Shown piece after piece: positions 22,521 through 55,784 of a DNA stretch of 64,000 bases. A program made the translations under genes and the position numbers. The notes beneath the pieces were generated by a model that made no database searches, had not been told where the DNA came from, and saw only the letters and a list, made by a program, of their open reading frames with translations. Every line of letters starts with the position of its first letter. Position 1 is the first letter of the stretch. This stretch comes from Alteromonas sp. MMG017. Lineage in GTDB: Bacteria; Pseudomonadota; Gammaproteobacteria; Enterobacterales; Alteromonadaceae. The DNA lies in assembly GCF_018100795.1 (NCBI RefSeq), contig NZ_JAGJDY010000002.1, positions 372,001 through 436,000 of the forward strand. The letters are read 5' to 3'.

Positions 22521-22559
22521 AATTTACAAATAAAACAAATGATTCATATTTAATTTACA
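22521..22559 (+). promoter_or_regulatory. candidate shared polysaccharide-locus operator (GH16 promoter)
   Basis: Reads ATTTACAAATAAAA followed 6 bases later by GATTCATATTTAATTTACA, about 100 bases before the GH16 start. The second half is the same as in the site before the GH2 gene at 55800, and the whole arrangement aligns with the site before GH3 (49648). Confidence 0.6.
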
Positions 22560-22660
22560 AACATTCCAACACATGCTTTAATCAAGCCCACCCAAAGGGG
22601 TAGTTTTTTGGGCTGCAAAACTCTAAAAATTCAGTTTGAACGTTAAAAATAAGGTATCGA

Positions 22661-23515
22661 ATGAAAATTAATTTTAGAAAAATAGCGAAATCTATTCCGG
22701 CTTTAATTGCTTTATCCGCTAGCATGGCCTCCCATGCTGCAACACCTGATGTTGACGGAGAAGGCAATTGGTTAATCAATAACGCAGGCTATACGTTTGA
22801 TGCGAGCGTAAGCGATGAATTTAATCAAGCCGGACAATGGCAAACCCCTGATACAACAAAGTGGAATCGGTATCACCCTACCGGTTGGCTTGGCAATAAC
22901 AGTTTTACCTATAGCAACTCACTTGCATATACGCATCAAGGAAATCTTGTGCTGGAAGCGAGGCAAGGTGATTTCTTTGGCGATAAGCACACCACGGGTA
23001 TTGTCTCTAGTAAACAAGCCTTCAAATACGGTTATTTTGAGGTGAGAGCCAAAGCTGCTAATAATAATATTGCGAGTAGCTTTTGGTTTTTTAACCGCAA
23101 TAACGCCAATGGCGAGCAGTATGAAATAGATGTGTATGAACATTTCCCCTATGAAGGCTGGAATGATCAAACCAAAAGTAAAAGTAATATTCATCACTTT
23201 GTATGGACTCAGCAAACAGGCAATGTAGACCAAATTCCAAACTACAACTATGCAGCCCAACTTGAAAACGGCGGTGTAAACACGGATTGGCATACCTATG
23301 GTGTAATGCGAACGCCCGCTGGCATTTACTTTTACGTAGACGGTAAAAAAGTACGAACTATTTGGAAGAGTGCCGTCAATGCGGCGGATTATCCTGGAGA
23401 CGTAGATATGCCGGTTATTCTAGATATTTTAGTGTACGACTGGCAATCAGGGGATAATGAGCCGAGACAAGAACGCTCCTATTACCATGTTGATTATTTT
23501 AGAGCGTGGCGATAA
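22661..23515 (+). CDS. GH16 family endo-galactanase (agarase/porphyranase type), secreted
   Basis: A 284-residue single-domain GH16 enzyme. A Sec signal peptide occupies about 1-26 (cleavage near SHA-ATPD). The catalytic motif YEIDVYE gives nucleophile Glu155, Asp157 and acid/base Glu160; the extra residue (E-x-D-x-x-E) is the beta-bulge form typical of agarases, porphyranases and kappa-carrageenases. SDEFN near residue 51 marks the fold start. Together with the GH86 gene nearby, agar or porphyran is the expected polymer, cleaved at internal beta-1,4 bonds. AAGG precedes the ATG. The subfamily is not assignable without a tree. Confidence 0.88.
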   Translation: MKINFRKIAKSIPALIALSASMASHAATPDVDGEGNWLINNAGYTFDASVSDEFNQAGQWQTPDTTKWNRYHPTGWLGNNSFTYSNSLAYTHQGNLVLEARQGDFFGDKHTTGIVSSKQAFKYGYFEVRAKAANNNIASSFWFFNRNNANGEQYEIDVYEHFPYEGWNDQTKSKSNIHHFVWTQQTGNVDQIPNYNYAAQLENGGVNTDWHTYGVMRTPAGIYFYVDGKKVRTIWKSAVNAADYPGDVDMPVILDILVYDWQSGDNEPRQERSYYHVDYFRAWR

Positions 23516-23636
23516 ACGCAAACATTGAATATGTAGTCGATACTCAATCGACTACCCTCTGCTCGCCTCTATATTTGCCAATTTAACCTAGCAGTAAACA
23601 TAACACTAGAACCGAACGCCTTATTGAGATGCTGAC

Positions 23637-25277
23637 ATGAACAACCTACTAAAACGTTTTTCGCTGCTTGTTTGTATTCTGTCTTTCAGCCCGTTGACCT
23701 ATTCAGCTACCGATAATTTCAAGAATCCGATCCTCTCTGGGTTTTACCCAGACCCTTCAATAACTCGCTCTGGTGATACCTATTACATGACGAACTCAAC
23801 GTTTGAATGGTTCCCAGCCCTGCCCATTCATAAAAGCAAAGATCTCGTTAACTGGGAGCTCGTTGGCTATGGCATCAATGACACTGCGCATTTGAACCTA
23901 CAAGAAGGACTGAATGACTCATTGGGTATTTTTGCGCCTACCATTAGGTATCACGGCAACACATTTTATATTATTACGACCTGTGTAGGTTGCGGTGGCA
24001 ACTTTATTATCACAGCCAAGGATCCCGCTGGTCCTTGGAGTAAGCCCACGTGGCTTAAAGGAGCGATAGGCATCGATCCATCATTGTATTGGGAGGACGG
24101 TAAGAGCTATTACCTTGGCGCGGGCTTATTAGAAGCGGAGGACAAAAAACAGTGGCCGGGGAAAAACGGTATTTGGATGCAAGAGATTGACATCGAATCA
24201 GCCAGCCTGCTGGGCCAACCAAAACAATTAACGTTTGGCCACGCTGCGAATGCCCGCTGGGCTGAGGGGCCGAGGTTATTTAAGATTGATGGCGAATACA
24301 TGTTGTTAATTGGTGAAGGAGGAACAAACGAGTTTCACGCTGTTACGGTTTTCAACAGCCCGTCTCTTTGGGGTCCATATGTGCCCAATCATGCCAATCC
24401 CGTGCTAACCCATCGTCATTTGCAAAATACTTATCCTATTGCTCAAACCGGCCATGCTGATTTAGTGCAAACCCAAGATGAACAATGGTGGTCTGTGGTA
24501 CTTGCCAAACGCCCACAAGAAGGTATTACCTTACTCTCCCGAGAGACATTTCTAGCCAAAGTGGTTATGAGTAGAAATGAAAGTGGTGTCACTCCTATCT
24601 TTAACCCAGGGGTAGGATTGCTGCAATCAGAGCAGCCGAGACCTAATTTACCGTGGACACCTGTTCAGCAAGAGGCGGCGCGGGACGAGTTTAATGCTAA
24701 TGAATTGTCGCTACAGTGGAACTTTTTACGTACCCCTAGCAAGCAATTGTACGCGCTAGAGGCTGGTGCTCTTCACTTAGCGTTGGCACCTCAGCGCATT
24801 GAAGATTTAGCTAATCCCGCGTTCGTTGCTAAGCGCATTAAGCACCATAGTTTTCACGCCTCAACTGCGCTTAATTTCTCCTCGACCAAACAAAATGAAA
24901 AAGCAGGGTTAGTGCTATACCGAAGGTCGACCAATCACTATCAGCTGCTTAAACAAGCAAATGAACTCGTGTTACAAAAAACGAATAAACGAGCAGAAAA
25001 CGGAAAGTTAATAGCGTCAGAAATCGCTCGCGTACCTTATACACATGACTCTATTATCATGCGCGTTGATGTAAATAATAATATGGCTCAATTTAGCTTT
25101 GGCCAGGATGAATCCCAGTTAGCACCTATCGGTGCGCCTCAAAGCGTAAGTATCTTGTCTGATGAAGTGACTCAAAGATTTAATGGTAACTATGTTGGCA
25201 TGTACGCCACCAGTTCAGGGCTCGTCAGCAACGCTCGAGCACAATTTAATTGGTTCGAGTATTCACATAAGAACTAA
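23637..25277 (+). CDS. GH43 family glycosidase (beta-xylosidase-like) with C-terminal beta-sandwich domain, secreted
   Basis: A 546-residue protein with a signal peptide (about 1-23, ending TYSA). The five-bladed propeller catalytic domain carries Asp39 (FYPDPS, base), Asp147 (GIDPSLYW, pKa modulator) and Glu210 (RWAEGPRLF, acid). From about 345 a GH43_C2-type beta-sandwich follows, as in GH43 beta-xylosidases. The most likely reaction is exo-removal of xylose or arabinose side residues; red-algal xylans and mixed galactans would supply these. Galactosidase activity also occurs in GH43. It lies 121 bases after the GH16 gene on the same strand. Confidence 0.87.
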   Translation: MNNLLKRFSLLVCILSFSPLTYSATDNFKNPILSGFYPDPSITRSGDTYYMTNSTFEWFPALPIHKSKDLVNWELVGYGINDTAHLNLQEGLNDSLGIFAPTIRYHGNTFYIITTCVGCGGNFIITAKDPAGPWSKPTWLKGAIGIDPSLYWEDGKSYYLGAGLLEAEDKKQWPGKNGIWMQEIDIESASLLGQPKQLTFGHAANARWAEGPRLFKIDGEYMLLIGEGGTNEFHAVTVFNSPSLWGPYVPNHANPVLTHRHLQNTYPIAQTGHADLVQTQDEQWWSVVLAKRPQEGITLLSRETFLAKVVMSRNESGVTPIFNPGVGLLQSEQPRPNLPWTPVQQEAARDEFNANELSLQWNFLRTPSKQLYALEAGALHLALAPQRIEDLANPAFVAKRIKHHSFHASTALNFSSTKQNEKAGLVLYRRSTNHYQLLKQANELVLQKTNKRAENGKLIASEIARVPYTHDSIIMRVDVNNNMAQFSFGQDESQLAPIGAPQSVSILSDEVTQRFNGNYVGMYATSSGLVSNARAQFNWFEYSHKN

Positions 25278-25704
25278 CAAACCTAGTGTCAGTGCAGTGC
25301 ATAAGCTTTTATTACAATAACCGCCCTGACACTCGTAACACTCAAGAAGCAACGTCGGTTTAGGCGTCTGTGTCCTCTTAACATTTTGCTTTGTTCTTTC
25401 TTGGCGCCTTTACAACTCTGTCTAAAGCCCCCCCTTTTCGCTATCGTGCCTTAGTCCCCTTACCCAATGCTCTAAGCTGAGCTATCAATGCTACTGCATA
25501 ACGCTATTCGAGTTCATTTAGCTAACCTTTTGCCTGCGCAATGTCTTTTGTGACACACATGCTTTTTACTGATGCACTGACCATCGCTTAAAAATGAGAA
25601 AATCGCATGTAGGGATAACGCTGAAAACGCCTCGTGTGGAATAATGGTTAAGCTAATTGATTCGCGGTAGTAAAAAAGTGCGATACAGCTAGCCACTCAC
25701 TAAC
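25278..25704. other. intergenic gap, no gene recognised
   Basis: Convergent gap after GH43. It contains an inverted repeat AGTGTCAG (25285-25292) / CTGACACT (25326-25333) just past the GH43 stop that may end that transcript. I see no gene in the rest. Confidence 0.5.
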
Positions 25705-55199: not shown

Positions 55200-55213
55200 C
55201 ATCACATATAAAT
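55200..55213 (-). promoter_or_regulatory. candidate operator half-site upstream of GH29/GH16 operon
   Basis: ATTTATATGTGATG on the minus strand, 82 bases before the GH29 start, resembles the shared ATTTACATATGATA element with three differences. The downstream half is poorly conserved. Confidence 0.35.
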
Positions 55214-55277
55214 ATGCATGTTTAAGTTTAAATTTAAAATCATTCAACTATTATGACTATTTAACCCGTATTTCAAA

Positions 55278-55634
55278 CTAGGTTAACGCGAGTTTCAGGT
55301 CATATATTTTGTTCATCTCAACCCACTTCTGCCCTTCTTCTGCCCAAGGCAATGGTTTTTGAAATTGCCACATGAGCGCTTCCCATTCATTACTCTTCGC
55401 TCTGCCTTCTGGGGTAGCCGGTTCCGCGTTTGGATCATAATGCTCGTTGGTTTCCATTATCATAAAAAGCCTATCCCCTAGATGATAAATCTCCATATCA
55501 ACTATGCCCATTTCGCGCATGTTTTGCGTGATTTGTGGCCATGCTTTGTCTGGCGTATGAAACGCTAAATACTGCTCAATCAGTGCTGGATCGTCGATTA
55601 AATCTAACGCTAAGCAATAACGTTTGTGAGTCAT
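55278..55634 (-). CDS. L-rhamnose/L-fucose-type mutarotase
   Basis: A 118-residue protein of the RhaM family (PF05336), small alpha/beta proteins that interconvert alpha and beta anomers of L-rhamnose, and in some bacteria L-fucose. Typical are the KRYCLALDLIDDPALIEQY start, an active-site His in the Y-hydrophobic-H (EIYHLGDRLFMIME) block, and the trailing WEALMWQFQKPLPWA. I start at the ATG at 55634, with GAAGGA 6 bases upstream; an earlier ATG at 55673 has none. Lying between a GH29 gene and a GH2 gene, it probably acts on the L-sugar released by GH29 (L-fucose or L-galactose). Confidence 0.85.
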   Translation of the reverse strand: MTHKRYCLALDLIDDPALIEQYLAFHTPDKAWPQITQNMREMGIVDMEIYHLGDRLFMIMETNEHYDPNAEPATPEGRAKSNEWEALMWQFQKPLPWAEEGQKWVEMNKIYDLKLALT

Positions 55635-55703
55635 ATGTTTTCCTTCATCAAAATTTCTGCGTGATAAATGCATAAAATAATTGTTGTCAATTTGTAAATA
55701 CGG

Positions 55704-55784
55704 TACATTTAAATTAAATATGAATCAATTAATTAACATGTAAATTTTTAAAGCATTTATTTGAACTAGATTTACATATTAAAA
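55704..55784. promoter_or_regulatory. cluster of candidate operator sites in the mutarotase/GH2 divergent promoter
   Basis: On the minus strand, 55746 to 55704 reads AATTTACATGTTAATTAATT then GATTCATATTTAATTTA, whose second half is identical to the GH16 site at 22541. A plus-strand half-site ATTTACATATTAAA (55770-55783) follows 17 bases before the GH2 start. A further partial copy, ATTTACAAATTG, lies at 55689-55699 on the minus strand. Confidence 0.6.

Follow-up and report, generated by a model that had tools for sequence, protein, structure and literature searches.

Most genes for red-algal galactan breakdown in Alteromonas sp. MMG017 are preceded by a shared 33-bp operator which consists of two tandem dyads at a distance of 20 bp, and which is bound, with a probability of about two in three, by an IclR-family protein. 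The window, i.e. the whole stretch of DNA analysed, comprises 64,000 nucleotides of the 4.73-Mb genome (contig NZ_JAGJDY010000002.1; G000:C12:372001-436000). From 22 kb on it encodes a red-algal galactan block with Pfam matches to glycoside hydrolase (GH) families GH16, GH43, GH2, GH29 and GH3, porphyranase, DUF5060 and sulfatases, as well as an L-rhamnose-mutarotase-like protein and two AraC regulators (AraC1 and AraC2). The candidate reader of the operator is encoded on the minus strand at C12:467363-468136 (window coordinates 95363-96136), about 31 kb past the right end of the window, and as a tetramer it would probably repress the genes for porphyran and L-galactose use. In the following, G000 denotes the own genome, G118 and G461 both denote Paraglaciecola chathamensis S18K6 (P. 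chathamensis), and G484 denotes C. adriaticum.

In all seven supported sites, the element contains ATTYAYATRTRA(A/T) twice, the second copy starting 20 bp after the first. The consensus of each unit is ATTYAYATRTRAAT, a 14-bp dyad of the form TTY-6-RAA, and since the unit centres are 20 bp apart, they are separated by about two helical turns. This spacing was obtained from an offset test, in which a leave-one-out half-site matrix was scored at each offset from -60 to +60. Besides offset 0, the peak was found at +20 (1.24), with a runner-up of -3.49 and a mean of -9.6 (standard deviation 2.4; offsets beyond 6 bp, +20 included), and +20 stood out although two of the seven sites carry the partner at -20. 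For each of the seven, +20 or -20 was within the two best offsets. Each unit shows dyad symmetry (column-shuffle P of 0.0046, 0.0098 with the window sites only, 0.011 and 0.002 for the two units separately), which fits one dimer per unit, and in 48 held-out sites, picked with the same matrix, none of 20,000 shuffles was as good in dyad bias. Some polarity remains despite this bias, as the left arm of the unit is stronger than the right. The 14-mer alone was rejected as a signal: ATTTACATATGATA with at most two mismatches gave 44 genome matches compared with 31 for the reversed control. It is the 20-bp tandem that carries the signal.

Throughout, sites were counted at a tandem score of at least 14, and transcription units in 22-64 kb were assigned from strand and spacing only. 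The first-pass annotation had placed nine sites before almost every transcription unit of the polysaccharide block and had described two similar halves about 20 bp apart. The two halves proved correct for all seven supported sites, at exactly 20 bp, and seven of the coordinates (22521, 28967, 40031 minus, 49648 and 55746 minus, plus 39807 and 55213 minus, which are second units) mark this one element. The remaining two found no support: the best tandem with a unit at 29014 scores -4.7 and that at 55770 scores 1.3, with three of 14 letters differing in P. chathamensis, compared with 21.6 to 27.3 for the seven sites. Nine of the eleven inferred units are directly preceded by one or other of the seven (Table 1); the units without an operator are the 29381 gene and AraC2 (62661), before which no site was found in the own genome. 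The 29381 gene, flanked by the porphyranase gene on one side and the GH2 operon on the other, encodes a 256-aa secreted-looking protein without Pfam match, and the closest site centre is 398 bp upstream, beside another gene.

Table 1 Predicted operators, inferred transcription units and regulator genes of the galactan block (window coordinates)
Feature	Position	Strand	Remarks
Operator before the GH16/GH43 unit	22522..22554	+	R1 E 0.006, training site; in P. chathamensis motif kept, letters not
GH16/GH43 unit	22661..25277	+	
GH86-type porphyranase (unit)	25743..28949	-	Pfam Porphyrn_cat_1, BPA_C; "GH86" is the label of the first-pass annotation
Operator before the GH86-type porphyranase (called start 28949)	28967..28999	+	17 bp from site to start codon
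29381 gene (unit)	29381..30151	+	
Inferred operon: esterase, PfkB (KdgK-like), SSF symporter, mannitol-DH family, DUF5060/apiosidase-like, GH2	30220..39743	-	Pfam
Operator before the minus-strand operon 39743-30220	39787..39819	+	Offset test, R1, P. chathamensis ortholog
Operator before the GH29/SASA esterase unit	39999..40031	-	Offset test, R1, P. chathamensis ortholog
GH29/SASA esterase unit	40103..43673	+	
Sulfatase-AraC1-GDSL-sulfatase unit	43785..49622	-	
AraC1	46870..47748	-	Pfam HTH_18; inside the inferred operon served by the 49648 site
Operator between the sulfatase-AraC1-GDSL-sulfatase (minus) and GH3 (plus) units	49648..49680	+	R1 E 5.6e-5, top R1 match genome-wide (training site); 32 of 33 identical in P. 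chathamensis
GH3 unit	49732..51933	+	
GH29/GH16 unit	52108..55118	-	
Operator before the GH29/GH16 unit	55201..55233	-	26 of 33 identical in P. chathamensis; R1
L-rhamnose-mutarotase-like gene (unit)	55278..55673	-	
Operator between the L-rhamnose-mutarotase-like gene (minus) and the GH2/sulfatase/sulfatase operon (plus)	55713..55745	-	32 of 33 identical in P. chathamensis; R1
GH2/sulfatase/sulfatase operon	55788..62512	+	
AraC2 (unit)	62661..63542	-	Pfam; rival candidate regulator

When the operons were withheld from training one after the other, the seven sites took ranks between 1 and 10 out of about 128,000 positions in the window. The first 21 kb of the window hold no site and 22-64 kb hold eight (the seven and one overlapping), while 12 resampled copies of the latter gave a mean of 0.25 and a maximum of three; Markov-resampled copies of each scanned region gave means of 0 to 0.5, and the own-genome background yielded one site in 271 kb. 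Hence, the motif is not equally frequent elsewhere, equal frequency being the outcome named beforehand as refuting, and the proposed local regulon for red-algal galactan breakdown is supported. Column-shuffled matrices (60) found 2.1 sites on average and 19 at most, compared with 44 observed. As the 44-site set stems largely from DNA that the model itself had selected (C. adriaticum stretches and contig C1 of genome G066), the spacing was recounted on held-out stretches chosen without it, where 20 bp gave 20 sites and other spacings at most eight. A secondary peak at spacing 18 (11 in the larger set, eight in the unbiased set) perhaps results from TATA-like repetition.

All seven sites recur in the orthologous promoters of P. 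chathamensis, in line with the conservation expected by the first-pass annotation, and 202 of 231 columns are identical, compared with 804 of 1302 in the rest of the stretches. The GH16 site is an exception (19 of 33 identical, 203 of 328 outside), as the motif is kept without an excess of identity. As a side observation, window positions 22618-64000 are collinear with G118:C57 where alignable, at 75-88% DNA identity, and the P. chathamensis assembly (as G461) carries genus label g5 and the own genome g1, possibly indicating horizontal transfer of the block. The mutarotase gene start called at 55673 probably lies 13 codons too far upstream; in P. chathamensis, the gene begins at the equivalent of MTHKRYC.

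A sequence-only model (R1; 37 columns, 14 rows from seven window and seven P. chathamensis sites) was run on the own genome, where it listed the seven training sites first (E-values from 5.6e-5 to 0.007), followed by 13 held-out rows at E<=10. Seven of these 13 rows, representing six places, lie within C12:445864-466483 adjoining the window, all between open reading frames (ORFs) of at least 120 aa, and when the half-site matrix was run over C12:352001-516000 (164 kb), the second best match was the held-out site at 461759 minus (23.7). None of 60 listed sites lies inside an ORF of at least 110 aa beyond its first 60 bases; in at least two cases (G066 C6:23618; C. adriaticum 246355), the site overlaps a mechanical ORF start. 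With 81-89% A+T (the range of the seven sites), such a motif is in any case biased towards intergenic DNA by its composition. An ORF start lies no more than 450 bp from 58 of the sites; with mechanical starts and the nearer of two divergent genes, the centre is 20-80 bp before it in 31 cases (median 64).

The sites past the window extend the predicted regulon to uptake and sugar-acid metabolism. Those at window coordinates 73865 and 74399 lie before a GH43-CBM6 gene in one direction and a TonB receptor in the other; further ones are found at 87952 before a halogenase-family gene, at 89727 at an altronate/galactarate-dehydratase-family gene with a divergent FucP-type transporter, and at 94450 before a Zn-alcohol-dehydrogenase/lactonase/aldo-keto-reductase operon. 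Tryptophan-halogenase-family genes recur in TonB-receptor loci (L063:793-3793; L144:242-1762; L149:27722-29236), with a site upstream in the own genome and in C. adriaticum. Among the sugar-acid and transport proteins, only FucP exceeds a specific curated NCBIfam cut-off (523 vs 280.4 bits), and the SSF symporter passes a superfamily model only. The L-fuconolactonase-like (282.6 bits, cut-off 400), KdgK-like (264.1, 400), galactarate-dehydratase-like (290.8, 730.85) and fructuronate-reductase-like proteins (340.1, 603; the last being the mannitol-DH family member of the 30220-39743 operon, fructuronate/tagaturonate-reductase-like) as well as the Zn-dependent oxidoreductase (224.2, 376) remain below theirs. 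Together, these genes suggest a route from L-galactose via L-galactonolactone, L-galactonate, tagaturonate and altronate to 2-keto-3-deoxygluconate (KDG) and KDG-6-phosphate. L-Galactonate catabolism of E. coli, as outlined in PMC12632266, has the same steps from tagaturonate on, and porphyran carries L-galactose-6-sulfate according to PMC5943477. The regulon is best explained as one of release (GH16, GH86, GH2, GH29, GH3, sulfatases) and uptake (TonB receptor, FucP-type and SSF transporters), and it probably also covers the oxidation of porphyran L-galactose to KDG.

The candidate regulator gene stands after the dehydrogenase operon. Its product has both IclR domains above cut-off (PF09339, HTH_IclR, 45 bits with a cut-off of 22; PF01614, IclR_C, 62 bits with 24), and its PDB relatives include 1mkm, TtgV (2xrn/2xro) and KdgR (5y6i). 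In the sample of 345 genomes of the order (E<=1e-50), the protein was found in the own genome and in G066 (87%); in the family it occurs in 15 of 395 genomes and eight genera (E<=1e-60). Sites lie within 20 kb of the IclR gene in 13 of these 15 genomes, namely the own, P. chathamensis, G066 and ten of 12 further ones, whose loci were covered up to 20 kb on each side (G483 with 7.7 kb in all, G431 with 33 kb). Without C. adriaticum, the 11 loci new to the analysis (about 401 kb) hold 23 sites and nine are positive, compared with one site in 16 same-genome control stretches of 320 kb in total, none of them from G483. Spacing of 20 bp gives these 23 sites, any other spacing from 14 to 27 at most six. 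As the G511 locus is nearly identical to the own one, the independent part amounts to 19 sites in ten loci, eight of them with sites.

In G066, four sites occur in a 25-kb cluster that encodes IclR, FucP-like, 3-keto-disaccharide hydrolase, GH29, UxaB-like and SSF relatives. The best one lies between the GH29 and UxaB-like genes, a divergent promoter whose site is related to the 39787 operator. On contig C1 of the same genome, the model found two more sites: the first immediately precedes a sulfatase-like ORF, and the second is located in a stretch rich in sulfatases. The C. adriaticum plasmid NZ_CP109967.1 carries relatives of IclR (62%), AraC1 (43%) and AraC2 (45%). Of its 15 best R1 rows, 14 (13 places) lie between annotated genes of an incomplete gene table, and the row at 569219 lies inside a hypothetical gene; many of the places precede GH2, GH16, GH29, sulfatase, TonB, dehydratase/mutarotase and dehydrogenase genes. 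The best R1 E-value per genome was discarded as a test, since G066 is only fifth of the non-own genomes and 49 of 117 others match at E<=1. Rather, it is the clustering of sites that separates G066 from other genomes. Genomes without IclR were scanned whole only with R1, in 118 relatives, and 20 control stretches around the best model match were taken, two of them from G066 (the resampling run covered 14). In the 18 stretches from genomes without a close IclR, 13 had no site and five the seed match alone, with scores up to 19.5, while the two from G066 carry one site each. Site clusters were hence found only in IclR-bearing genomes among those looked at.

Mechanistically, an IclR tetramer composed of two dimers would sit on the two tandem dyads and would repress the promoters until a sugar-acid intermediate releases it. 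A keto-deoxy sugar acid may be the effector, a guess by analogy with KdgR. Repression is the most likely mode because the sites are near start codons, and at GH86 no promoter would fit between the site and the gene, provided that the called start is right. In P. chathamensis (18.4), G511 (16.0) and G066 (13.9), a site is located about 220-240 bp before the IclR gene itself, the first of these also 33 bp before a divergent ORF.

Several findings weigh against the IclR-family protein as the reader. The IclR loci of G623 and G560 (60-62% identity) have no site within 20 kb, nor any other regulon relative nearby at E<=1e-20. The match upstream of the own IclR gene is weak (8.6), and the dyad TTY-6-RAA corresponds to neither published group (TTY-11/12-RAA, RAA-5/6-TTY). 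Moreover, repression is inferred from site position only. Of the 14 other genomes with IclR, 12 also have AraC2, and in five of seven genomes the AraC2 loci equal or exceed the IclR loci in number of sites.

These last two points lead to the strongest and still serious rival, namely that AraC2, one of the two candidates of the first-pass annotation, binds the tandem repeat as an activator, which we consider unlikely. Direct repeats at a distance of about two helical turns are in keeping with AraC proteins, and the stronger left arm of the unit gives some polarity. Among 15 genomes tested, AraC2 occurs in P. chathamensis, G511, G430, G590, G483, G457, G603, G673, G575, G431, G484 and G560, and it was not found at E<=1e-20 in G066, G623 and G738, the last of which also lacks IclR. 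Five of seven further AraC2 loci carry sites, 13 in all, many of which precede FucP, GH2 and sulfatase relatives. Four sites lie in 45 kb around AraC2 in C. adriaticum, and AraC2 itself is preceded by a site in C. adriaticum (14.5), G575 (15.1) and G560 (14.7). In the seven genomes in which both loci were read apart, the AraC2 and IclR loci hold 0 and 3 sites in G430, 0 and 5 in G590, 3 and 3 in G457, 2 and 1 in G483, 4 and 1 in G575, 2 and 1 in G431, and 2 and 0 in G560. Co-localisation was therefore dropped as proof for IclR over AraC2, with 14 vs 13 sites. As nearness of sites does not separate the two proteins, only G066, which has sites and IclR but in which AraC2 was not found at E<=1e-20, discriminates cleanly between them. 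In addition, the AraC2 loci of G430 and G590 lack sites, the units show dyad symmetry, and at the GH86 site there is no room for an activator upstream of the promoter if the called start is right. The NHL/DUF1553/DUF1501 genes beside AraC2 have no site before them in the own genome, P. chathamensis, G430 or G590. These neighbours (window 62661 on; L061:1109-7015) recur in several genera and in six of the seven further AraC2 loci, and they may be AraC2's own target.

The core LGRS(N/S)AEIYRM of the IclR protein is unchanged in 14 of 15 aligned orthologs, including all 13 with sites nearby. G623 reads LSRSNAEIYRM; G560, also without sites near IclR, has the common core. The second helix-turn-helix of AraC2 is 41-94% identical to the own one, a comparison of limited weight as AraC2 is less conserved throughout. 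The IclR-family protein is preferred over AraC2 because of G066, the dyadic units, the published tandem habit of 18-22 nt, the unchanged core and the GH86 site at 17 bp from the start. The first-pass annotation had proposed an AraC-type site; this guess from sequence alone was correct as to the operator but is probably mistaken as to the protein.

That another shared factor reads the sites is improbable. Regulators were looked for in the fetched loci only, and besides AraC1 and AraC2 the window encodes one more AraC-type protein (6986-7936) as well as LysR types (4457, 12112, 20587). Against this, the 18 ORFs scanned on G066 C6 encode as regulators besides IclR an ECF sigma/FecR pair, a histidine kinase/response regulator pair and a Crp-like protein, none of which kinds is among the annotated genes of the own block. 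Still less probable is AraC1, even though it lies inside the block, in the inferred operon served by the best site, and its own-genome paralog sits in an agar-type locus. A close relative was found only in P. chathamensis (86%); searches of 118 relatives and of 345 genomes of the order gave none above 45%, while in the 12 further IclR genomes no genome-wide search was made. Relatives elsewhere reach 35-45%, the paralog's locus (L053-L055) has no site, and 45 kb around the C. adriaticum relative hold one (15.8). The expectation that AraC2 or AraC1 is present wherever sites cluster fails in one genome, G066, with no AraC2 and an AraC1 relative of 35% on another contig. Finally, that the pattern merely reflects sigma-70 promoters or A+T-rich intergenic composition is hardly tenable and largely refuted as a full explanation. 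Promoter-like matches coincide with two sites, TTTACA-N16-TATATT in the 49648 site can be read as a promoter, and the seven sites are rich in A+T. But promoters are everywhere while the tandem is concentrated in the regulon, as the background and column-shuffle counts above show, and in a third scanned region no site agrees with a promoter-like match in both units.

As to the surroundings, Pfam annotation of six of about 20 genes in the first 21 kb of the window gave LysR, Rieske/VanA, AraC, FAA-hydrolase and LysR types together with the LysR at 20587, and the region is read as aromatic catabolism. The AraC-type gene at 6986-7936 has Cupin_6/HTH_18 matches and the LysR-type gene at 20587-21810 two helix-turn-helix matches, both being left of the block. 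The AraC1 paralog (44%) belongs to a second agar-type locus, G000:C22:430001-450000 (L053), with an agarase-CBM-domain protein, a P450, a ferredoxin-reductase-like protein, a GH43-superfamily member and an IclR paralog; no tandem site was found there. G738, placed in the same species, has neither IclR (E<=1e-60) nor AraC2, and hence the block is probably strain-variable.

With the operator model, depolymerisation, uptake and a probable L-galactose-to-KDG route are brought together in one regulon, and a concrete candidate regulator is named alongside the two AraC proteins. The model also offers a means of finding further members: through its held-out sites, transporters, a TonB receptor, halogenase-family genes and sulfatases were located beyond the window as well as in other genera. 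A bolder reading, which we hold only tentatively and rate below even odds, is that the orthologs in eight genera of one family form an undescribed IclR group acting as a portable porphyran/L-galactose master switch. This group would read a third IclR operator class, two 14-bp TTY-6-RAA dyads locked at 20 bp, and sites would have arisen before the galactanases, sulfatases and receptors acquired by each lineage. If true, red-algal galactan genes, unnamed ones included, could be traced from the operator by itself.

Among known systems, KdgR, an IclR-family protein regulated by KDG, is the second NCBIfam match of the own protein (83.5 bits, far below the cut-off of 275). It resembles the present case in its A/T-rich palindromes (PMC8222616) and differs in its operator and polysaccharide. 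The best NCBIfam match is PcaR/PcaU/PobR (108.7 bits, below the cut-off of 284.75), also of the IclR family, which, as summarised in PMC8222616, control aromatic catabolism through GTTCG-type sites, with a third box for PcaU and PobR. For the family as a whole, the same survey describes tandem palindromes with centres 18-22 nt apart, tetramers and centres mostly at -20 to -80. The predicted IclR-family reader would resemble such tandem regulons (PMC8222616; TtgV tetramer, PDB 2XRO) in its dyad centres at 20 nt (range 18-22), in sites close to gene starts, and in sugar and sugar-acid catabolism among the targets. In contrast, the group consensuses given there are WTTYCRYW3RYGRAAW and TGRAACAN1-2TGTTYCA (Suvorova and Gelfand 2021, PMC8222616), while the dyad here is a 14-bp TTY-6-RAA and the targets are a red-algal galactan block. 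Since some family members have other motif types (PMC8222616), this mismatch lowers membership without removing it. In the open-access literature on regulators of agar and porphyran loci, with few subscription papers covered, no IclR control of a red-algal galactan block was found in the portions available, and little on red-algal galactan regulation in marine Gammaproteobacteria. CgrA of Zobellia galactanivorans is likewise a transcription factor over a red-algal galactan block, yet according to the available part of PMC5698469 it belongs to the AraC family, to a flavobacterium and to carrageenan use, and no operator is given for it there. An IclR regulon with tandem dyads is therefore of a known kind, and its porphyran/galactan member appears to be new.

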